The notes below the pieces were generated by a model. The model saw only the letters and a program-made list of their open reading frames with translations. It made no database searches and was not told the origin of the DNA. The position numbers and the translations under genes are program-made. Below are positions 1,105-41,728 of a DNA stretch of 64,000 bases, piece by piece (position 1 is the first letter of the stretch; each line of letters starts with the position of its first letter). Source of the DNA: Leptothermofonsia sichuanensis E412 (lineage in GTDB: Bacteria > Cyanobacteriota > Cyanobacteriia > Leptolyngbyales > Leptolyngbyaceae); assembly GCF_019891175.1 (NCBI RefSeq), contig NZ_CP072600.1, forward strand, positions 1,178,001 to 1,242,000, in the 5' to 3' direction.

Positions 1105-3348
1105 CTATCGTCGTGGTGGTTGAGGCTCCAGGATCTGGCGCACGCCTGGATCGGGTGTGTAATTGTAACCAAAGGTGGCGCGATCGCTGTCATCCAGAAT
1201 GCGCGGAGTCAGCACAACAATCACCTCTCGCCGCTCGTTGTTGCGCTCTGTCCGCCTAAACAGCGCGCCCAAAATTGGGATATCCCCCAGAATTGGGATT
1301 TTACGCACAGTCGCCCGGTCCGCATCCTGAATAATCCCCGCTGCAACCAGCGTTTGACCATCCCGCAGACGGATACGACCAGAGGCGAGCGATCGCTCCT
1401 GTAACAGCGTGATTACCTGAGAGGACGGTGGGCTACCACCAAAGCCAGGAATGTTGATGATAAAATTGCCAATGGGCGCAGACACGACCGGGTTCACTGC
1501 CAAAGTAATAAAGCCATTGTCATCAATCCGGTCAACCTCAACATTCAGCGTCACCCCAGCATTTGCCTTCTCTGTGGTGACTGTCACTGTTGCCGAATCT
1601 CCCGATCCAGTGGTTTCCACCTTAACGTTAGAGATAATTTCCTGGGTCAGTCTCACCGTTGCCTGTTGACCTTCCTGAACGACCAGGGTTGGGTCGGTCA
1701 GGATCTTGGCATTCCCCGAATCAATCTGAAGTTGCAACTGAGCAAAGAAATTACTGGCAAAGTTGTAACTCGGAATAGGGGGAACGGCCCCAAGCGGCGA
1801 AAGCCCAACCTGACTGCTATCAACAGTTCCCAACTGGGCTGGGGTGCGTGTCCCGAAATTGACGATGCCCAACCCCCCCTGGTTAATGGCGCGGTTTGCT
1901 CCCACCCCAAACGAGAAACTGAAACCAGCCCGTTCAATACTGTTGAGGTTGACATCAATCACTTTGACATTCATCGTCACCTGGCGACGACGGGCATCCA
2001 ACTGGCTTAAAAGTGCAGTTGCAATTTCCACCTTACGGGGGGTACCACTCACCACCACCGAGTTCAACCGGGCATCCACACTCACAGCCAGCCCAGATAA
2101 GGTCAGGGGTGCTTCCCCTCTTTGAGCACGAATGAGCTTGATGTCTGGCTCCTCAATGCGGGTTAGTACCTGGTTGGGACCGGCAGTCCCAATGGGCACA
2201 ACCGTGACCCGCGTAATCGGAATTTGAAATTCCGCCCCTTGAGAAACCAGGTAGTTGGCAGCTTCCGTAGCACTTGCCTGGTTTAACCTCAAAGTACGGG
2301 TTGTGATATTACGGGCATCGTCAGGCAGTCGAGGTCCCACATAAATCGTTGAAGCAACCCGATTAGCCTCCAGGCCTGTGATTTGCAGGATTGTGTTAAA
2401 CACATCCTGAACTGATTCATTTTCAATATCGAGGGTAACCCTGGGTCCCTCATCGGGTCCTGCTCCTGGCTGCTGGGCTGGTTGCGCCTGTTGCTGTTGC
2501 CCCGGTATAGCTCTGGGCGGCGCGTAGGCAAGGTTGAGTCCAGCAGCCCGTGCCAGGAGTGCCAGAACTTCCCGTGCCGGGGCATCTCGCAGCACCAGCC
2601 GGGGCACCCGCTCAGCCGTTCCCAGGTCAACCGTACTGGTTGCCGGATTGAACTGAGAAATGGCGATGTCACCCGTCGGGGGTGGCAGTGCCCGTGGTAG
2701 CGCAGGCAATGTGACTGGATTGACGGTTCCGGGAGGTCCCCCCTGAACCGTAACCCTGGGGTTGGGAACCAGGGGTGGGGTTGGGCTTTTCAGCTCAGGT
2801 AGGGGCGGTTGTGCCCCAGGAGCAGCCGGGGGGGGTGCCTGGGCGATTGGGGACTGGGATGGGGGTGGCGGGGTTCGGGTCGGTGTTGATGAAACCGTGG
2901 GCAGTGTTGCCGGGACTGAAGAGGCTGGCGGTTTGCCAGTTGAGCGACTCAGGTTCAGCATCAACCCACCGCTACTGGGACGGAGGACCTCGCCCATCAG
3001 CGCTCCCTTTTGCCCGATCGCCGTCACCCGCACACTATTGGCATCCAACTGGTCAACTGTGACCCGCGCAATGCCCGGTGCCGGGTTTTCCTGGCTGTAA
3101 CTTTTGCCATTGGGGAGACGAAGTTGGGTACTGGTAATATCCGCCGTCCAGCTATCACTTCGATTCACCGCAAACACATGGGGGCGCTCACCCGGATTCG
3201 TTTGCAGAAAAACGTTGACTCCTTCCTTCGTGGGATTGAGCTGAACAGCCGTTATCTGCGCTGATGGTGATGCAAAGGCAGGTTGTATCGCTACCAGGAC
3301 GGCTGCCCCACCAAGCACAATTCGACCGAATCCCTGAGACTGTTTCAC
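1105..3348 (-). CDS. pilQ: Type IV pilus secretin PilQ
   Basis: Outer-membrane secretin through which the type IV pilus leaves the cell; it also serves natural transformation. An N-terminal hydrophobic export signal is followed by an AMIN-type domain (about residues 30-130) and a long Pro-rich linker (to about 230). Then come the secretin short N domain (about 250-340), a NolW-like domain and the C-terminal secretin core, which carries the signature IPILGDIPILGALFR. About 747 residues is normal for the cyanobacterial form. I start at GTG 3348 because GAGGAAGGA lies just upstream; a TTG 18 bp earlier is possible. It is the fourth gene after pilM, pilN and pilO, 45 bp beyond pilO. Classical operons carry pilP between pilO and pilQ, and none is present here. 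Confidence 0.95.
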   Translation of the reverse strand: MKQSQGFGRIVLGGAAVLVAIQPAFASPSAQITAVQLNPTKEGVNVFLQTNPGERPHVFAVNRSDSWTADITSTQLRLPNGKSYSQENPAPGIARVTVDQLDANSVRVTAIGQKGALMGEVLRPSSGGLMLNLSRSTGKPPASSVPATLPTVSSTPTRTPPPPSQSPIAQAPPPAAPGAQPPLPELKSPTPPLVPNPRVTVQGGPPGTVNPVTLPALPRALPPPTGDIAISQFNPATSTVDLGTAERVPRLVLRDAPAREVLALLARAAGLNLAYAPPRAIPGQQQQAQPAQQPGAGPDEGPRVTLDIENESVQDVFNTILQITGLEANRVASTIYVGPRLPDDARNITTRTLRLNQASATEAANYLVSQGAEFQIPITRVTVVPIGTAGPNQVLTRIEEPDIKLIRAQRGEAPLTLSGLAVSVDARLNSVVVSGTPRKVEIATALLSQLDARRRQVTMNVKVIDVNLNSIERAGFSFSFGVGANRAINQGGLGIVNFGTRTPAQLGTVDSSQVGLSPLGAVPPIPSYNFASNFFAQLQLQIDSGNAKILTDPTLVVQEGQQATVRLTQEIISNVKVETTGSGDSATVTVTTEKANAGVTLNVEVDRIDDNGFITLAVNPVVSAPIGNFIINIPGFGGSPPSSQVITLLQERSLASGRIRLRDGQTLVAAGIIQDADRATVRKIPILGDIPILGALFRRTERNNERREVIVVLTPRILDDSDRATFGYNYTPDPGVRQILEPQPPRR

Positions 3349-3393
3349 GGTTCCTTCCTCACTCAAAAAAAATCACTTGAACTAGAGTGCAAA

Positions 3394-4311
3394 TTATGGT
3401 TTTACGAGCGATCGCCCCGGTGCTGGCGCATCCGTAGGTTTCCTCACGGCACTGGCTGGCACCATCAGATTTGCCTTTGCCGCCTCTGTCTGACTGGCGG
3501 GCAACAACGCCTCCAGCCGGAATGTTGTTGTAATCTTAGGCTCAGGCTGACAATTGGTTAAAAACCGGAGCATATTTCCCTGAATTTCGTACAAACGACT
3601 GGTGGCAACCTTACCTGGTGTCCCATCACCAACCACGAACTCAACATCTTTCAACACCAGCAGGGGTTGCAACCGTTCAATACTGCGCAAAATTGACTGC
3701 GTCTGGTTAAAGTTGCCCTCAACTGTGACATTGATCACCTCTCGCTTCAGCTTGTTATTGACTAGCGAACCATAGGAACCATCGGTGACCACTCCAGAGA
3801 GTTTGGGGTCAGGTGTAAACCGCTTTAACCGGGACCGAACCACCAGATCTCCGACAACCTCCTCCAGATCCCGGATATTGTTCCTGACCCAGGCCGGGCA
3901 GGTTGCCAACTTATCCTGGCGCAGCTTATCTACTCCAGCATTGCGCGCATCAATCTGACGGTTAATATCCAGCGGCAAGGTATCCAGTGCTGGCTCATCG
4001 GCAAATAACGATAACACGCTCTGGCGTTGTTGTTTGGCGGCTTCCAGGTCTTTCTGGGCGGCTTCAATTTGCTTGTTAATTTCCTCGGTCTGCTTAACCT
4101 GAGCTTCCTTTTCGGCAACCTGTGCCTGCAACTCCTGGTATTTCTGCCACTCAGGCTGCACAAGATTAAGCAAAATGTAAGCGGCTCCTCCCAAACCCAG
4201 CAGAGCCAGGAGAACACCACTGATCGTTGGGGTCAGCGGAATACCAAACACCACCGGATAAGCTGGTACCGGCTCTACATTGCTGGGAGCAAAATCATCA
4301 GTCATCGTCAT
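3394..4311 (-). CDS. pilO: Type IV pilus inner-membrane protein PilO
   Basis: Inner-membrane alignment-complex protein that dimerises with PilN and links PilM to the secretin. A short cytoplasmic N-terminus precedes one membrane span at about residues 30-52. A coiled coil rich in Gln, Glu and Lys follows (about 55-105), and then a periplasmic ferredoxin-like domain. Its ATG overlaps the pilN stop codon by 4 bp (ATGA), so the two are translationally coupled. At 305 residues it is longer than proteobacterial PilO (about 200), with extra sequence and two Cys in the periplasmic part; this is usual for cyanobacterial versions as far as I know. Identification rests on topology and on position between pilN and pilQ. 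Confidence 0.88.
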   Translation of the reverse strand: MTMTDDFAPSNVEPVPAYPVVFGIPLTPTISGVLLALLGLGGAAYILLNLVQPEWQKYQELQAQVAEKEAQVKQTEEINKQIEAAQKDLEAAKQQRQSVLSLFADEPALDTLPLDINRQIDARNAGVDKLRQDKLATCPAWVRNNIRDLEEVVGDLVVRSRLKRFTPDPKLSGVVTDGSYGSLVNNKLKREVINVTVEGNFNQTQSILRSIERLQPLLVLKDVEFVVGDGTPGKVATSRLYEIQGNMLRFLTNCQPEPKITTTFRLEALLPASQTEAAKANLMVPASAVRKPTDAPAPGRSLVKP

Positions 4312-5153
4312 TTTTGAATCACCCCTTTGCGCTGTAGTGCTTCAATTCGAGCTACCAGTCCAACGGCAGTCTTGCGCTCTAACTCTTGCAGTAAATCTGA
4401 CGCTGGAATATCGTTAAACGCTGTTTGCACCGTAAATTCAACCTGGCGGGGCAGAGTGGGCAGGGCGCTGGGATCCACCGAGGCCGTGGGAGCATTTCGG
4501 AGTTGAAGATTACCAAACTTGAGAGCCTCTTTCTGAAGTTCTGAGGACAGCAGTCTGGTTTCCGATGGATTCAGAAAGGGTGACCGTTGCAGCACGAGCA
4601 TAAAGTCATTCACATCATTGAACGAATTGGCAAGGCCGTTGATTTCAATCTTGCCCACCACTGGGGGAGTGGGTGGTGGTGCAGGCTGCCCTGGACTGGG
4701 ACTGGGACTGGGCTGTTGTTGCAGTGCCTGGGGATCGGGAGCCAGTTGCCGGATGCGCAGGATCTGTACACCAGGCGGTATGCGATCGCGAAAATCCTGC
4801 ATGACCGCAGACCAGGGCTTAATCGTGTTGAACACACTTGCCAGGGCATTGGTTTCATCCCTGACCTGGGTGACCTCAGCCTGAATACTTTCAATTTGTT
4901 TTTTCTTTGCTTCAATATCCCCCAACTGGCTATCCAGGGCTGCCTGTTGCTGCTCCAGCTCCCCATTTCTGGCTTGCAGAAAGAGCAGTAACCCCCCTGC
5001 CAGAGCAGGCAACAGGATCGCCGCCAGCAATCCTAAGATCAACGGTTGCCGACTATCACTCGGAACTGCCCTCATTCCCCGCCCCCGGGCAGCCGCACCA
5101 TCCGGTTTATACTCCGGGCGATCATTTAAGAAATTTACGTCCAGACTGTACAT
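4308..5153 (-). CDS. pilN: Type IV pilus assembly protein PilN
   Basis: Inner-membrane partner of PilO. Its cytoplasmic N-terminal segment normally docks into PilM, and here it reads YSLDVNFLNDRPEY, matching the PilN N-terminal LNLLP-type docking peptide in position. One membrane span lies at about residues 38-60, followed by a coiled coil to about 110. A Pro-rich loop (about 145-165) interrupts the periplasmic domain. The start lies 1 bp after the pilM stop and the end overlaps pilO by 4 bp, which marks a tight operon. Length (281) is in the range of cyanobacterial PilN. Confidence 0.88.
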   Translation of the reverse strand: MYSLDVNFLNDRPEYKPDGAAARGRGMRAVPSDSRQPLILGLLAAILLPALAGGLLLFLQARNGELEQQQAALDSQLGDIEAKKKQIESIQAEVTQVRDETNALASVFNTIKPWSAVMQDFRDRIPPGVQILRIRQLAPDPQALQQQPSPSPSPGQPAPPPTPPVVGKIEINGLANSFNDVNDFMLVLQRSPFLNPSETRLLSSELQKEALKFGNLQLRNAPTASVDPSALPTLPRQVEFTVQTAFNDIPASDLLQELERKTAVGLVARIEALQRKGVIQK

Positions 5154-5154
5154 G

Positions 5155-6273
5155 TCACATTGCCTCCCGCAAACCTAGACCCAACACAACTCCCAACCCC
5201 GGGCGCTGAGTTTGAGGAATCTCCTGATTCACCTCCAGCCCCAGTGCCGTAATCGGATCAATCTGGCTGCTTGGCAGACTCAGTCGCTGAGTGAAAAACT
5301 CATCCAACTGCCCGATTGCCCCACCTGGACCAGCCAGCAGCAGTTGGGCTACTTCCAGGTTGTCTCCCTGATTCAGGTAAAAATCGATGGAGCGCCTTAA
5401 TTCATCCGCCAGTTCCCCAATGATTCGCAGCATTGCTGCCGCTCCGGGATTAGTACCTCCCATTTTGCCGGGACCTCCCATGGTTGTGTCGGCAGGAGTG
5501 ACCGGGATTGTCATACTTTGTAATAAATCAGTACTTCGGGACGGCGGCAGATTCATTGCCCGCGACAGCGCACTCTGAATCTGATAGGTCCCAATCGGAA
5601 CAGTTCGCGAAAACTGTGGCACCCCATCCACCGCGATCGAAATCTCTGTACTTTCAAACTCAATATCGACAATGGCGACCGCTTCCTGGGGCGAAAACTG
5701 CCGCAATTGATCCCGAATCGTGCGAATCAAAGCAAAACTGCTAATCTCTAAAACATCAATTTGTAAGCCAGCTTGCTGAAAGGTTTGAATATAGGAATCG
5801 GTAATTTCCTTACGGGTTGCCACCAGTAAAACCTGAAACTTTTCGATGCCATCTTCATCAACAAACAGTCCAAGTTTTTGATAGTCAACATCTGCCTCTT
5901 CCCGAGGAAAGGGAAGATAAAGACCGGCTTCCTGATTCAGCACCATCTCCCGCAGCTCCTGATCATTCAGTTCTGCCGGAATTGGAATAATCCGGGTGAC
6001 TGTATCCCTGCCTCCGGTAACTGCGGTCGCCACCCGTTTGGCTTTGATCTTGTTTTCAGCCAGCAATGACTGAATCAGTTCTGCCATAGCTGGCGCATCC
6101 ATAATCTGTCCTTCCTGAAACAACCCCTCAGGCACTGGAATAGAACCCAGGGTTGCCAGTTTAAATCCTCCCCCCTGCTTCTTCAGTTGAGAGAGGTTAA
6201 TGCGATCAGCCGCGAGTTCAATCCCAACGCCTTTTGATTTTCCAGAAAACAAGCCTTTCAGAGAGTTAACCAC
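5155..6273 (-). CDS. pilM: Type IV pilus actin-like ATPase PilM
   Basis: Cytoplasmic actin/FtsA-like protein that binds the N-terminal peptide of PilN and couples the alignment complex to the motor ATPases. The N-terminal strand (VGIELAADRINLSQL) is the PilM version of the actin phosphate-1 region, and IVDIEFESTEISIAVDG is the phosphate-2 region. A C-terminal segment (LLLAGPGGAIGQLDEFF) matches the adenosine motif. Length (372) is normal. The start is GTG at 6273 with only a weak GCGGGA upstream. First gene of the pilMNOQ operon; its promoter must lie in the long spacer upstream. Confidence 0.93.
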   Translation of the reverse strand: MVNSLKGLFSGKSKGVGIELAADRINLSQLKKQGGGFKLATLGSIPVPEGLFQEGQIMDAPAMAELIQSLLAENKIKAKRVATAVTGGRDTVTRIIPIPAELNDQELREMVLNQEAGLYLPFPREEADVDYQKLGLFVDEDGIEKFQVLLVATRKEITDSYIQTFQQAGLQIDVLEISSFALIRTIRDQLRQFSPQEAVAIVDIEFESTEISIAVDGVPQFSRTVPIGTYQIQSALSRAMNLPPSRSTDLLQSMTIPVTPADTTMGGPGKMGGTNPGAAAMLRIIGELADELRRSIDFYLNQGDNLEVAQLLLAGPGGAIGQLDEFFTQRLSLPSSQIDPITALGLEVNQEIPQTQRPGLGVVLGLGLREAM

Positions 6274-33195: not shown

Positions 33196-34863
33196 CTAGC
33201 TGACTGAAGCGGGGGGTCTTTCTTCGGACATGGGACTGCGTCCATTTAAACCATAGTCATAGGGTCCATGGGTGACAACGGGCAATATCTCCCAGTTTTC
33301 GATAATCGGGGGCGACTCCGTTGTCCATTCCAGCGTCATAGCTTTCCAGGGATTATCGCCAGCTTTTTCGCCAGCAATCCAGCTCCAGATGACATTGACT
33401 GTAAAGGGAATCACCGAAATTGCCAGCACATAAGCCCCAATGGTGCAAAGCTGGTTGATGGGTTCAAATTGAGGATCGTACATGGCCACCCGACGGGGCA
33501 TTCCCTGTAAACCCAGTTGGTGCATGGGCAAGAAGGTAAGGTGTGTGCCAATGAACGTTAGAACGAAGTGAATTTTGCCCAGGGTTTCATTCATCATCCG
33601 CCCGGTCATTTTGGGAAACCAGTGGTAAATTCCCGCATAGATGCCGAATACCGAACCTCCGAACAAGACATAGTGGAAATGAGCCACGATGTAGTAAGTA
33701 TCGTGGACATGGACATCAAAGGGAACCACACCCAGCGTGACGCCGCTCAGTCCCCCAATCACAAACATAGACAGCAGACCGAGGGCAAACAACATGGCAC
33801 TGGTGTAGCGGATCTTGCCACCCCAGAGGGTTGCCACCCAGCTAAAAATCTTAATGCCGGTGGGAACAGCCACAATCAGTGTAGAAATGGTGAAGAATAG
33901 CCGCATCCAGGGAGGGGTACCACTGGTAAACATATGGTGAACCCAGACGAACAGACCTACCAGACAGATGGCCAGACTGGAGTAGGCGATCGCCTTATAG
34001 CCAAAAATTGATTTACGGGAATGGACTGGGATCACTTCAGACATGATCCCAAAAATGGGCAGGATCATCAGATACACTGCCGGGTGGGAGTAAAACCAGA
34101 ACAGATGCTGATAAAGCACAACATTACCATTGGCATCGGGCTTAAAGAAGGACGTGCCAAAGTTGATATCAAACAACAACAGGACTAAACCAGCCGCCAA
34201 TACAGGAGTAGACACCAGGGCCAGCAGGGAAGTTGCCAGAATCGCCCAGCAAAACAGGGGGAGCTGATCCCACCGCATACTGGGAACCTTCATCTTGAGG
34301 GTTGTCACGATGAAGTTGATGGAACCCAGAATGGAAGAGGTTCCCACCAGGACAATGCTGAGAATCCAGAAACTCTGGGCAGTGGGGGCAGTAATTTCAC
34401 TCAGGGGAGGGTAAGAAGTCCACCCTGCCTGGGCACCCCCAAACAGAAAGCTTGCCAGCAACAATGCCCCGGCAGGAGGATTCAGCCAGAAGGCGATCGC
34501 ATTTAGCCTGGGAAATGCCATATCCCTGGCACCCACCATCAGCGGCACCAGGAAGTTACCAAACCCACCAATGGCACTAGGGACGATCCACAGAAAAATC
34601 ATGATCGTGCCGTGGTTAGTCATGAAAGCATTGTAGAGACTGGGGTCGATAAAATCAGAGTCTGCCGTAGCCAGTTCTGTCCGCATGGCAACGGCCATCA
34701 GTCCCCCAATCAGATAAAAGAAGAAAGCAGTAACCAGATATTGAATCCCAATGACCTTATGGTCGATGTTGAAGGTAAAGTATTCGTACCATTTCCACGC
34801 TTTCTTATGCGCACTGGATTCAATAACTGGCGGGTTTTGGACAGGGATTTGTGCTTGAGTCAT
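33196..34863 (-). CDS. ctaD: Cytochrome c oxidase subunit I
   Basis: Catalytic subunit with heme a and the heme a3-CuB site. Twelve spans. Ligand regions: MTNHGTIMIFLW (low-spin heme His), WFYSHPAVYLMILP (CuB His and the Tyr-linked region), WVHHMFTSG (two CuB His) and HDTYYIVAHFHYVL (heme His pair). Length 555 is normal. Transfers electrons from the CuA subunit to oxygen in respiration, in thylakoid or cytoplasmic membrane. Confidence 0.97.
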   Translation of the reverse strand: MTQAQIPVQNPPVIESSAHKKAWKWYEYFTFNIDHKVIGIQYLVTAFFFYLIGGLMAVAMRTELATADSDFIDPSLYNAFMTNHGTIMIFLWIVPSAIGGFGNFLVPLMVGARDMAFPRLNAIAFWLNPPAGALLLASFLFGGAQAGWTSYPPLSEITAPTAQSFWILSIVLVGTSSILGSINFIVTTLKMKVPSMRWDQLPLFCWAILATSLLALVSTPVLAAGLVLLLFDINFGTSFFKPDANGNVVLYQHLFWFYSHPAVYLMILPIFGIMSEVIPVHSRKSIFGYKAIAYSSLAICLVGLFVWVHHMFTSGTPPWMRLFFTISTLIVAVPTGIKIFSWVATLWGGKIRYTSAMLFALGLLSMFVIGGLSGVTLGVVPFDVHVHDTYYIVAHFHYVLFGGSVFGIYAGIYHWFPKMTGRMMNETLGKIHFVLTFIGTHLTFLPMHQLGLQGMPRRVAMYDPQFEPINQLCTIGAYVLAISVIPFTVNVIWSWIAGEKAGDNPWKAMTLEWTTESPPIIENWEILPVVTHGPYDYGLNGRSPMSEERPPASVS

Positions 34864-35067
34864 AAACCGTTGATTAATCTTGGGGGAATTGCAAGGTGCC
34901 TGGGTATTAAGATCTGTCAGTTTGGAAAAGTCGTCAGTTGCTGGTTAATTGGTTGTTAGGCGTCATTAACTGGAGATTGGTCGTCAGTTACAAGATGGAA
35001 AACACATACAGGGTGGGAACTCGACGAAAAATACTAATCCAGACTCTAACAACGAACCAACGAACCA

Positions 35068-36108
35068 TTACTGATGAGGATGGAGTTGTTTCAACATTTC
35101 AGCATTGATCCCCATTTCCTCACCGTAAGGAGTCAGAAATTCAGACACCGACATTTCAGCCGGGTTTGCCGCAATTGCCTGGTTCAAGGAATTCGCCTGG
35201 GCAACCTTATTTTCTTCCAACCACTGCTGATAGTCTTCAGGCGTATGCACGATTACCTGGGTTCTCATGCTGCCGTGATAGGAGCCACACAGTTCAGCAC
35301 AAACAATCGGATAAGTTCCCGTCTTGGTGGCGACAAAGTTTAGCTGTGACTTTTCCCCTGGCAGAGCATCCTGCTTCAGGCGGAACTGGGGCAACCACAG
35401 AGAGTGGATCACATCCTGAGCCGTGATGTTAAGCTGCACACTTTTACCAACGGGAATATGAAGTTCCCCTGTAGTCAGCCCATCATCCGGGTAGGTAAAC
35501 AGCCAGGCGTACTGCAATCCCACGACATTGACAGTGACATCGGCTTTATTCTTGGCTTCAGGTGGAGCGCCAAAGCCGTAAATCGGAAGCTTATACGCCT
35601 TTTCAGAGTCTGGGTCCATTACAGAAGCGGAAGCGGGATCAGCCGCATCGGCAACCAGGGGAGCCGCGATCGCACTCCCTGGAGGGTGACCAGGCTGATG
35701 GGCAACATGGGCAGAAGGGTGACTGTGGGCCATCATCCCGGTGGAGGGTGCAAAGCCCCCCATGCGCTGGTACACATCCACGCTGTAAATCCCCAAACCA
35801 ATCACAATCAGTGCTGGGATTGCTGTCCAAACAATTTCCAGCGGGAAGTTGCCTTCCAGAAAGACACCGTCGGTATCATCTCCTGGGGGACGGCGGTACT
35901 TGATGACAAAAATCAAAATTGCTCCCTGAACGACCAGGAAAAGGGCGAAAGCGATACCCAGCATAATGCTGAACAGGTTATCAACCAGAGGTGCCTGTTC
36001 CGACACCTGTTCGGGTAACAGCCCATGATTTAAACTCACCCAAACGCTCAGAAGCGTAATGACGATACCAGCGATCAGGGTCAGTAATGAAGCTGGAACT
36101 TGTGACAT
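35068..36108 (-). CDS. ctaC: Cytochrome c oxidase subunit II
   Basis: Carries the CuA centre that takes electrons from cytochrome c6 or plastocyanin. N-terminal hydrophobic segment (about 8-28) plus two spans (about 44-70 and 92-112) precede the cupredoxin domain. CuA ligands are in DVIHSLWLP and CAELCGSYHGSM. Residues 125-141 form a His-rich insert (five His) between the last span and the CuA domain, longer than in most homologues I know. Length 346. First gene of ctaCDE, 204 bp before ctaD. Confidence 0.96.
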   Translation of the reverse strand: MSQVPASLLTLIAGIVITLLSVWVSLNHGLLPEQVSEQAPLVDNLFSIMLGIAFALFLVVQGAILIFVIKYRRPPGDDTDGVFLEGNFPLEIVWTAIPALIVIGLGIYSVDVYQRMGGFAPSTGMMAHSHPSAHVAHQPGHPPGSAIAAPLVADAADPASASVMDPDSEKAYKLPIYGFGAPPEAKNKADVTVNVVGLQYAWLFTYPDDGLTTGELHIPVGKSVQLNITAQDVIHSLWLPQFRLKQDALPGEKSQLNFVATKTGTYPIVCAELCGSYHGSMRTQVIVHTPEDYQQWLEENKVAQANSLNQAIAANPAEMSVSEFLTPYGEEMGINAEMLKQLHPHQ

Positions 36109-37270: not shown

Positions 37271-38080
37271 ATGCGTCCACGTCTGTTGCTGGTCGTTCTT
37301 GGTGCGATCGCGATTGCGGTCGCTGGTTGTGCATCTGAGGAAGCTGTAGAGACTTCTCCCTCTCCATCACCTCCATCACCAGAAGCCTCTGCACCATCTC
37401 CGTCTCCTTCACCTGGAGCCGTGGGACAACCCTTCGCCCAACCCCTAGTGGCTCAAAAACCGGGTACAGCTCAGGCGGTTCCGGGACTGATCCAGCCAAC
37501 GAATGCTGATGAACGGGCAAAAGAAGTTCAGGCTCGCATTAATGCCCAGCAAGTAAAGAAAGACCCCTTTTCCGGTCTTCCTCCCGTATTGCAGAAACCG
37601 ATGATACCCCGTGCAACTGGCACATCCCCTCAGCAAACCCTTACCGGGCAGAGTGTTCCTCCTCTGCCTGGCGCGCCACAACCTGCACTACCCCCAATCA
37701 CCACCGCCACGGCGCCGCCTCGTCCCAGCAGTCCCTTTCCACCCGGCAGAACACCAGCAGGACCAGCGACTCCTCCTGGTGTTCCAGCCAGGCCAGTGCC
37801 ACCACCCCCCACAGCTAATCTGGCGAATGCTGTCGAGGTTTCAGGTGTGGTATACGTAGGTGGCAAAGCCCAGGCCATTGTTAAGGCTCCCAATGAAGCC
37901 ACCAGTCGTCATGTGCGAGTTGGACAACGGCTTTCTGACGGTCAGGTGCTGGTGAAGCGCATAGAAATTAATCGGGGATCTGACCCAATTGTTGTTCTGG
38001 AAGAAAATGGCATTGAAGTCCCCAGAGCTGTGGGTGAAGGGGGAGCACCATCCCAACAGGCTGGTGGACAATCTGCCTGA
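37271..38080 (+). CDS. Pro-rich lipoprotein with PilP-like C-terminal domain
   Basis: Lipoprotein signal peptide MRPRLLLVVLGAIAIAVAGC, cleaved before the Cys. Two Pro-rich linkers (about residues 25-50 and 115-180) surround a middle segment that contains KKDPFSGLPP. The C-terminal ~75 residues (VEVSGVVYVGG...VRVGQRLSDGQVLVKRIEI...IVVLEENGIEV) follow the PilP plan of a beta-domain ending in a G-Q-L-G-V-I-E pattern. Start ATG 37271 with GGGGAGA 6 bp upstream; TTG 37256 is less likely. It could be the missing pilotin-like partner of PilMNOQ, or an unrelated lipoprotein with an SH3-like domain; this is inference from pattern only. Confidence 0.7.
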   Translation: MRPRLLLVVLGAIAIAVAGCASEEAVETSPSPSPPSPEASAPSPSPSPGAVGQPFAQPLVAQKPGTAQAVPGLIQPTNADERAKEVQARINAQQVKKDPFSGLPPVLQKPMIPRATGTSPQQTLTGQSVPPLPGAPQPALPPITTATAPPRPSSPFPPGRTPAGPATPPGVPARPVPPPPTANLANAVEVSGVVYVGGKAQAIVKAPNEATSRHVRVGQRLSDGQVLVKRIEINRGSDPIVVLEENGIEVPRAVGEGGAPSQQAGGQSA

Positions 38081-38340: not shown

Positions 38341-39021
38341 ATGACCCACTCAACCTCCGGGCAAACGGCAGCAGGCTTCTGGCAAACTGACCTGATCGAC
38401 TTTTTCTTTTCGCCTACCCAACAGCAGGACCCGATTCAAACCCAGGATGCGGATCTGTTGCATCAATTTGGCTTTGTTCCAGGGCTGAAAGAACTGTTAA
38501 TGGTGCGCCAGGTTCATGCGCTGGAACATGCGACGGTCTGGGTTTTGAGCGAAAAAGCGCCTTTCAAACGTCATCAAAATTGGCGTTCGTCAGACAATGA
38601 TTCGTCAGACAATGAATTGTTAGGAGGCATGTCTACTGATCGGGGGTTTTACCTGTACGGACGGGTTAACTCGGAGGAATTAAAGCAGGCCGTTAAATTG
38701 GCGCTCCGCCGAATTACATCGGGAGAGTGGGATCTGGCCGTCCATCCCCGCTGCGGTACCAACCTGTCGGTGGGGATGTTGCTGGCGGCAGGATTTGCTG
38801 TTGGAGCATCCATGCTGCTACCCCGCGAACCAATCGGTCAAATCATTGGGTTGGGGCTTGCCGCTACTACGGCTGCCCAGCTTGCTCCTGACCTGGGTAG
38901 CCTGGCTCAACGGTATGTGACGACGGCGATTCCTTTTAATCTGGCTGTGGATAGTATTCAACCCATTCGGGATTCCTTTGGGCGATCTGCACATTTTGTT
39001 CAGGTTCGGTGGGTGGAATAA
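38341..39021 (+). CDS. DUF6391-like conserved cyanobacterial protein
   Basis: A 226-residue protein with a conserved-looking core VRQVHALEHATVWVLSE, then GGMSTDRGFYLYGRV and HPRCGTNLSVGMLLAAG. A hydrophobic Gly/Ala-rich segment (about residues 140-180) may be one or two spans. The HALEHAT and HPRCGTN motifs recall a metal site, but no function is known. A 14-bp micro-duplication (tcgtcagacaatga twice, about 38586-38613) adds the residues SDNDSSDNE. MITE-like copies 2 and 3 flank the gene in opposite orientation. Confidence 0.65.
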   Translation: MTHSTSGQTAAGFWQTDLIDFFFSPTQQQDPIQTQDADLLHQFGFVPGLKELLMVRQVHALEHATVWVLSEKAPFKRHQNWRSSDNDSSDNELLGGMSTDRGFYLYGRVNSEELKQAVKLALRRITSGEWDLAVHPRCGTNLSVGMLLAAGFAVGASMLLPREPIGQIIGLGLAATTAAQLAPDLGSLAQRYVTTAIPFNLAVDSIQPIRDSFGRSAHFVQVRWVE

Positions 39022-39274: not shown

Positions 39275-41728
39275 ATGTCCAGGGTGGCGCTGCTGATAGG
39301 AGTGAGCAAGTATCCACCAGGTTTGAACCCGCTACTGAGGGCGCAGAAAGACGTGGAGGTCATGAGGCGCGTTTTGAGGCAGCCACAGTTTGGGTTTGAG
39401 GTGGTGGAGTGTTATTGTGATGCATCCCTGCAAGAGATGCAGGAGGGAATCGAAACCTTTTTTAAGAACCGGATTCCAGATGACCAAGTTTTGTTCTTGT
39501 TTACTGGGTACGGCATTCAGGATAGGGATGGCAAACTCTATTTCGCGACACCAGAAACCGCACCAGATAGTCAGGGCAGGCTGATTAAATCGAGAGCAAT
39601 TCCAGCCAGCTTTGTGCGGGATGTCATGAATAGCAGCCCGGCAAGGCACCAGGTGATGATTTTGGATTGCCATTTGCAACAGGGCTTCGATCAGTTTGTT
39701 CAGGATAACAACCCGATTGACCTGTTTGCGCAGCTCGATGGCAGAGGCAGAGTAATTCTGGCAGCTTCTATCTTTACCCATCCTGCCGTGGAAACCAGTG
39801 ACATTGATGTCTGGAGTTACACGCGCTATCTGATAGAGGGCATTGAAACGTCTGTTGCGGATAGAGATAGTGATGGCCTGGTGTCAGCGGAGGATCTGCA
39901 CGAGTATGCTCGCCGCAAAATGGCGATCGCGGCTCCGGCCATGAATCCTCAAATCTACGGTAGTCCAGAATCGGCACGCTTTCCGCTGTTAACAGTGCCG
40001 GTACACGATGCCCGTGTGATCTACCATAAGGTACTCGATGATCTGGTTGAACGCGGACAGACCGATGCGACGGCTACCATGTTGTTGGAGCACCGTAGTT
40101 TGCTCGATGAGATCAAACATGGCCTCAAGTTGTCTCCCCAGGAGGCGGAAGACATTGAAGCTCGTAGCCTTCGACCCTTGCGGGATTACCGACAAAGGCT
40201 ACAGTCTTACCAGGAAAAATTTTCAGAGACTAAACTGGGAAACGTGGGACCTAATCACCAGAACAATGACGGTTTAAGACGGTATCGGCAGGCACTTGGC
40301 CTGACGAACGATGATACTGCTGCCATTGAAGCAGTGCCTGACATTGTGCAGCAACAGCAGCAGCGAGAGCAGTATCAACGGAACCTCGTAAAGTACGAAC
40401 AGGTATTACTGGCCGTTATGCAGCGCCAGTACCCCATTGCAGAGGGCGATCGCCGGCTTCTGCATCACCTCCAAACGTCCCTCCAGCTCAGAGGCAACGA
40501 TGTCCAGATGATTGAAACTGAGCTTGCCACCCGACTACACCGCCGGGGAACACCCCCTCCCGACCCTGCAACCACCCCAGCATCCGTGACCCAGCCGCCG
40601 GCTGAACTCTATCCCACTCAGCCAGGCCCCCCATCACCATCTGCTTCGGGCTGGACGCCTGCACCATCCTACCAGCCTCCAAATGCAGGCGTTTCTCCCC
40701 AGCCAGTGCCTGCCTCCTACAGTCCATCGGGAACAAGCCCTCCACCCGGACAACCTGCAAGCCCTCCACCACTTGCTCAGTCCCCTCCCAGTCCTTCCCC
40801 AGTTCCACCTGTGGATACCAACCAGGGTCCAGTGACGACGGTTCAACCTTCGGATGCCACCGCCAATCCACCTGCCTCTGCCCCTATGAGTAAGTCACCG
40901 AATCACTCAAGATGGAGTTACGGTGTATTCATTATTCCAGCCCTATTGCTGGCTGCCATGATTGGGGTAGGGGTAGCGCTTTGGTCTTCCTCCAGGAACA
41001 TGGTTAATCCCTTCAACCAATCAACCATGTCTCCAGGTGTCGATAGCCAGAACCCCCCGTCTCCGGTTCAGCAAGCCGCCGGGGATATTAACCTGGGGGT
41101 CACCGCTCATGGGATTGGCGACTTCAATGGTGCCATCCGGTACTACAATCAGGCGATTAAGGTTTTAACGGACATCTGTCAGGCAAACAAAAACAGCCAG
41201 CCATCATCATGCCAACTGCTGGCAAAAGCTTACAGTAACCGCAGCTATTCTTACTTCCGGTTGCAGAATTATAATCAGGCACTGGAGGATGCTAATTCAG
41301 CGGTTGTTTTGGACTCCAATCTGGTGGAAGCGAGGATCAACCTGGCAAACGCCCGATTTATGCAGGGCGATCGCGCTGAAGCCATTCAAGACTATAATCG
41401 GGCACTGGAACTGAAGCCCAGCCCCTCTTTACAGGCAGGTATTTACAACAACAGGGGTAACGTTTACTTCTCTCAAAATAGCCTCCAGACTGCTCTAAAG
41501 GACTATGACCAGGCACTGGCATTGAGAAATGATTATGCAGATGCTTACTTTAACCGGGGGCTGGTGCATGAGCGGCAGAATAACATTAACAATGCCATCA
41601 GTGATTTCCAGAATGCGGCAAAGTTTTATCGGGAACAAAATGCCCTGGACCTGGCACAGGAAGCTGAAAAACGAGCAACCAATCTTCAGCAGAATGCACC
41701 AAAAAGCACGGCATTGCCACCCGGATAG
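39275..41728 (+). CDS. Caspase-fold (orthocaspase-like) TPR protein with substituted catalytic dyad
   Basis: 817 residues. N-terminal caspase-like p20 domain (about residues 1-240): VALLIGVSKY start, then FLFTGYG (76-80) where FSGHG is expected, and MILDCHLQQ (128-136) where DCCHSG/DSCHSG is expected. The catalytic His is therefore Tyr79 and the Cys position is His133 (Cys132 is one residue early). An EF-hand-like loop DRDSDGLVSAED lies at 196-207. A helical region with repeated L-Y-L units (about 245-420), a Pro-rich linker (about 425-535), a membrane span (about 550-572) and TPR repeats (about 603-800) follow. Probably a non-proteolytic, membrane-anchored scaffold with the caspase part on one side and TPRs on the other. 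Confidence 0.82.
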   Translation: MSRVALLIGVSKYPPGLNPLLRAQKDVEVMRRVLRQPQFGFEVVECYCDASLQEMQEGIETFFKNRIPDDQVLFLFTGYGIQDRDGKLYFATPETAPDSQGRLIKSRAIPASFVRDVMNSSPARHQVMILDCHLQQGFDQFVQDNNPIDLFAQLDGRGRVILAASIFTHPAVETSDIDVWSYTRYLIEGIETSVADRDSDGLVSAEDLHEYARRKMAIAAPAMNPQIYGSPESARFPLLTVPVHDARVIYHKVLDDLVERGQTDATATMLLEHRSLLDEIKHGLKLSPQEAEDIEARSLRPLRDYRQRLQSYQEKFSETKLGNVGPNHQNNDGLRRYRQALGLTNDDTAAIEAVPDIVQQQQQREQYQRNLVKYEQVLLAVMQRQYPIAEGDRRLLHHLQTSLQLRGNDVQMIETELATRLHRRGTPPPDPATTPASVTQPPAELYPTQPGPPSPSASGWTPAPSYQPPNAGVSPQPVPASYSPSGTSPPPGQPASPPPLAQSPPSPSPVPPVDTNQGPVTTVQPSDATANPPASAPMSKSPNHSRWSYGVFIIPALLLAAMIGVGVALWSSSRNMVNPFNQSTMSPGVDSQNPPSPVQQAAGDINLGVTAHGIGDFNGAIRYYNQAIKVLTDICQANKNSQPSSCQLLAKAYSNRSYSYFRLQNYNQALEDANSAVVLDSNLVEARINLANARFMQGDRAEAIQDYNRALELKPSPSLQAGIYNNRGNVYFSQNSLQTALKDYDQALALRNDYADAYFNRGLVHERQNNINNAISDFQNAAKFYREQNALDLAQEAEKRATNLQQNAPKSTALPPG

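Follow-up and report, generated by a model that had tools for sequence, protein, structure and literature searches.

A lipoprotein gene lying apart from pilMNOQ as the very probable pilP of Leptothermofonsia sichuanensis, with a second paralogue in the genome and a sigF neighbourhood in other genomes

The lipoprotein gene described here, located in a window of 64,000 nucleotides (the whole stretch of DNA that was analysed) from Leptothermofonsia sichuanensis E412, very probably encodes PilP of the type IV pilus in this cyanobacterium. PilP is a lipoprotein thought to join the inner-membrane pilus base with the outer-membrane pore. From its sequence, the protein had been read as PilP-like in a preliminary description, and this reading is supported by the match of its C-terminal domain to the HR fold and by the co-occurrence of its family with pilM. 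PilP has long been reported missing from cyanobacteria, and the papers disagree: it was called absent in a 2015 review (PMC4390875) and in a 2024 paper (PMC11407516), while a 2025 review treats it as present, encoded apart from pilMNOQ, and regards the meaning of this separation as enigmatic (PMC12288463). The fold match, the phylum-wide spread and the single secretin of the genome constitute strong computational support for PilP identity in filamentous cyanobacteria. The features are collected in Table 1.

Table 1. Features of the pilP and pilMNOQ regions, in window coordinates
Feature	Position	Strand	Basis or remark
Cyanobacterial PilP-type lipoprotein gene	37271..38080	+	269 aa; start ATG at 37271, stop at 38080
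Signal peptide with lipobox AVAGC (Cys20 as lipid anchor)	37271..37330	+	Sequence; Cys invariant in 46/46 members
Conserved segment PGLIQPTNADER, residues 71-82, overlapping predicted helix 79-94	37481..37516	+	
KKDPF motif, residues 96-100	37556..37570	+	P99 and F100 invariant; equivalent to RDPF of E. coli HofP
Predicted C-terminal HR-type beta domain, residues 184-253	37820..38029	+	AlphaFold2; Foldseek; VIA-align
DUF6391 protein	38341..39021	+	Pfam PF19928, 4e-52; directly downstream of pilP in 30/57 loci
pilM	5155..6273	-	TIGR01175, 6.5e-106
pilN	4308..5153	-	PF05137, 9e-9
pilO	3394..4311	-	Place in cluster; weak PilO/GspM model matches
pilQ secretin (AMIN, STN/N0, N1, secretin)	1105..3366	-	Sole secretin of the genome

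The open reading frame is no chance frame, as a 73% identical homologue is found in the same genus and homologues occur in 232 of the 291 cyanobacterial genomes of the host's class that were searched. Between the lipid anchor and the C-domain there is a linker of 163 residues, 26% of them proline, where the full-length model has a pLDDT mostly below 60 (residues 21-180), corresponding to a disordered linker; the ordered parts of this model are helix 79-94, just N-terminal to the DPF, and the C-domain, both structure predictions having been made from alignments of three sequences only. In the alignment of 46 members, the residues M1, C20, P99, F100, G192, I203, G224, P239 and G247 are invariant, and the segment PGL..TN..ER...[R/K].[D/N]PF is conserved, located before the second Pro-rich linker. 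The C-domain of the window protein carries VRVGQRL at residue 215 and ENGIEV at 245. The organization proposed earlier, a lipoprotein with Pro-rich linker, KKDPF and C-terminal beta domain, is therefore borne out by the sequence, the 46-member alignment and the models.

Regarding the pilus cluster, the gap between pilO and pilQ is only 27 bp, therefore there is no room for pilP there, and the window gene lies outside that interval, at 31.0 kb from pilM; the lack of pilP within pilMNOQ and the presence of a lipoprotein about 31 kb away, as first noted, were thus confirmed. Because cyanobacterial pilP is known to be unlinked to pilMNOQ (PMC12288463), gene location was not treated as defining for PilP. 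The genome holds one pilM gene and one secretin gene, pilQ. In addition, genes for the cytochrome oxidase subunits I and II are found upstream of pilP, on the opposite strand (33196-36108).

The AlphaFold2 model of the C-domain, built from three sequences, has a pLDDT close to 90 across residues 20-90 of the modelled piece, and two structural comparisons match it to the HR domain of PilP/GspC. When compared with the PDB by Foldseek, ranks 1-8 are all PilP (2ivw, 2y4y, 3jc8, 2y4x, 2lc4), with a probability of 0.92-1.00 and weak E-values of 0.02-0.09. In VIA-align, rows 1-10 (Z 8.5 to 6.5) contain GspC HR, PilP and GspB HR domains only: 3oss GspC (chain C; Z 8.5, rmsd 2.6 over 65 residues), the PilP structures 3jc8 (7.8), 2y4y (7.8), 2lc4 (7.5), 2y4x (7.1) and 2ivw (7.0), and 4wfw GspB (7.0), the PilP structures as a whole spanning Z 6.5-7.8. 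After row 10 there is another GspC HR at 4.6, and the first unrelated structure, a pyruvate carboxylase, appears at 4.2. The predicted fold of the C-domain is thus HR-type, and PilP and GspC HR tie in VIA-align, so that the modelled fold by itself cannot tell them apart.

Given that VIA-align ranks a GspC HR first, the protein could be conceived as a type II secretion subunit resembling GspC; in GspC (3oss, 6hcg) the HR domain interacts with a secretin by binding its N0 domain. However, GspC is a transmembrane-anchored part of that system, whereas the window protein has a lipobox and lacks a PDZ domain, and the only secretin of the genome is the PilQ of pilMNOQ, with no GspD of its own, which makes this assignment hardly credible. 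As PilQ is the one secretin present, an HR protein here has no other secretin partner.

At the sequence level, searches of Pfam, NCBIfam and PDB sequences with the window protein recognised no relative, a search of the whole genome with PF04351 gave zero matches, and the family profile retrieved only signal-peptide look-alikes among PDB sequences. When 46 members were scanned singly, none reached the Pfam PilP cut-off; PF04351 (PilP) was nevertheless the Pfam family matched most often, weakly and in 3 of the 46 (best E 0.048), the T2SSC and GspC models giving weak matches too. Sequence by itself is therefore no proof of membership in PilP, and the sub-threshold PF04351 result is taken as a sensitivity limit, not as the absence of a defining trait.

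The PilP proteins of Pseudomonas aeruginosa, Neisseria meningitidis and Myxococcus xanthus (2y4y, 2ivw, 3jc8) are likewise lipoproteins with a disordered linker and an HR-type beta domain, but their gene lies between pilO and pilQ (PMC4390875), unlike that of cyanobacteria, and the cyanobacterial protein is longer and remains below the Pfam PilP cut-off. Similarly, HofP of E. coli has, in its sequence, an RDPF motif and then a small C-domain, but it comprises 134 aa and is encoded inside the hofMNOPQ cluster; among 25 E. coli proteins compared by hhalign it ranked first, with a negligible probability and without significance.

It had also been proposed that the genome pattern of the lipoprotein should follow pilMNOQ, and this holds for pilM. 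Across the 291 genomes, pilM (by TIGR01175) is found in 250; with the joint counts tallied by hand, 224 genomes have both the family and pilM, 26 pilM only, 8 the family only and 33 neither (Fisher p 5e-20, genome relatedness ignored). Several of the 8 family-only genomes are incomplete drafts, and those listed among the 33 with neither are nearly all of the family coded f2, with genomes of 1.6-3 Mb. Of the 26 pilM-only genomes, 10 yielded members in profile searches (two of these, G057 and G083, being rows of the second profile), and in the other 16 pilM-positive genomes no member was found by the family profiles.

Some unusual forms were seen during these searches. In a small f2 genome without detected PilM, one ORF (L133:1246-1893, minus strand) has a GGC lipobox, GRNDPF and a short C-domain and, judged by its sequence, may be a very divergent PilP. 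Meanwhile, a 95% complete genome (G230, locus L014) carries two family members and no PilM match, due either to an assembly gap or to pilM loss. In two genomes of f14 (L088/L121 and L126), an apparent transmembrane segment replaces the lipobox and is followed by DPF and an HR-like C-domain, so this lineage apparently holds a transmembrane-anchored, GspC-like form of PilP, which is new as far as found. In several f5 genomes (L122-L125), putative divergent members show additional sequence N-terminal to the DPF linker and no obvious lipobox. Weak profile matches in f14 g28, f30 and part of f5 were not members where inspected, being of signal-peptide length and directed to cytochrome-like or fasciclin-like proteins.

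A link to the published cyanobacterial PilP is provided by genome G031, whose KaiC has the same sequence as the one in PDB 2gbl/3dvl, which we take to be from Synechococcus elongatus. This genome has a single family member (profile E 1.1e-11), which adjoins a gene for a type III glutamine synthetase. This member is, almost certainly, Synpcc7942_0168, because it adjoins glnN, which is Synpcc7942_0169 (PMC4973221), and is the sole member there; family and glnN neighbour together establish the orthology with the S. elongatus PilP. Synpcc7942_0168 is a published, predicted PilP (PMC9260433), the prediction being attributed to Taton et al. 2020 in a 2020 review (PMC7690835). Consequently, the preliminary suggestion that the lipoprotein fills an open gap in the cyanobacterial pilus alignment complex cannot be kept as new, as this was already in print (PMC7690835, PMC9260433, PMC12288463). 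Both proteins have a lipobox, a Pro-rich linker (with GRTDPF in S. elongatus) and an HR-type C-domain and are unlinked from pilQ; however, Synpcc7942_0168 has about 230 aa, is very divergent and adjoins glnN instead of DUF6391.

Mutants of Synpcc7942_0168, pilQ and sigF all form strong biofilms (PMC9260433). This bears on the idea of an envelope lipoprotein with the same small beta fold and no pilus role, which would agree with a similarity to PilP sequences that lies below every cut-off. Such a protein would have to share the co-occurrence with pilM, the DPF-HR order and the linkage to sigF described below, as well as an orthologue whose mutant phenotype is like that of pilQ (PMC9260433), and we regard it as very improbable.

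As to the binding partners and mechanical role of PilP, we infer that Cys20 would be lipidated after export, tethering the protein to a membrane, by analogy the inner membrane at its periplasmic face. The PGL..TN..ER...DPF segment may bind the PilN-PilO dimer, like the N-terminal linker of proteobacterial PilP, while the long Pro-rich linker would cross the thick cyanobacterial peptidoglycan, and the HR domain would bind PilQ at N0 and in this way connect the secretin with the motor side. The points against the PilP assignment are the weak Foldseek E-values, the sub-cut-off Pfam scores, the negligible hhalign probability for HofP, the tie with GspC, the 16 pilM-positive genomes where the profiles detect no member, and the position of the gene outside the pil cluster; a further one is a paralogue in the same genome, so PilQ could be served by either copy or both.

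This second PilP-type lipoprotein is located at G000:C1:1120992-1121651 (minus strand; L033:1504-2280), outside the window and about 56 kb before its first base, with 39% identity to the window PilP over 232 residues. In the family tree, which comprises 111 columns only and has weak deep support, the second type forms a single nested branch (15 rows, support 98/87) within the family. It was seen in the sampled families f1, f3, f18 and f25, and in 12 of 13 of its loci the gene is followed by a conserved ORF whose product has paired CxxC motifs and two hydrophobic segments. Many other genomes besides this one carry the second paralogue, which is new as far as found; in five sampled f32 genomes only the window's type was seen, and no second paralogue was found in the S. 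elongatus genome. The presence of two PilPs and one secretin here prompts the question whether labour is divided between the copies.

Among the 57 examined loci of the window's PilP type with at least 900 bases upstream, sigF immediately precedes pilP in the same orientation, with a gap below 600 bp, in 30 (L002, L011-L013, L015, L016, L018-L020, L023, L025-L027, L029, L031, L032, L042, L048, L051, L053, L054, L057, L058, L060-L064, L073, L111). These cover eight family codes (f1, f6, f19, f25, f27, f32, f36, f38) plus one uncoded record, and the four of the 30 that were scanned with NCBIfam pass NF005644 as SigF (384-424 bits; cut-off 261). Upstream of the second-paralogue loci, sigF was found in 0 of 14 (p 2e-4 against the 30 of 57, relatedness ignored). 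Beside the window pilP, sigF is absent, the best match in the genome being elsewhere (G000:C1:4156495), so in the window's genus the linkage was either lost or never present. In a limited check of the literature, no mention of the sigF-pilP linkage was found, and this adjacency over at least eight families is new as far as found.

Both copies in this genome share lipobox, DPF linker and HR domain, as would be expected if the window gene were a specialised second PilP and the copy at G000:C1:1120992-1121651 the main one serving PilQ. However, the window copy belongs to the broadly distributed group and the other copy to a nested later branch (98/87), and the linkage to sigF occurs only in the window's group (30/57 vs 0/14), making this arrangement improbable, and the window gene is preferred as the PilP of the pilus.

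In Synechocystis and N. punctiforme the major pilin gene is under the control of SigF, and other pilus genes of N. punctiforme are SigJ-dependent (PMC7690835, PMC6495340). It might be, although we hold this only tentatively, that pilP is paired with sigF, and not with pilMNOQ, so that motor and secretin become connected under the major-pilin sigma factor or along with it, and that in lineages with two PilPs both connect to a single PilQ, either interchangeably or each at its own stage. If true, this would answer whether the genomic uncoupling of pilP, enigmatic according to the 2025 review, has a regulatory meaning. Testable leads on the regulation of the alignment complex are provided by the adjacency of sigF and pilP and by the second paralogue.

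Downstream of the DUF6391 gene, the region 39275-41728 encodes a protein in which a caspase domain (Peptidase_C14) at the N-terminus is combined with TPR repeats at the C-terminus, and among the loci compared this gene adjoins the pilP-DUF6391 pair only in this genus.
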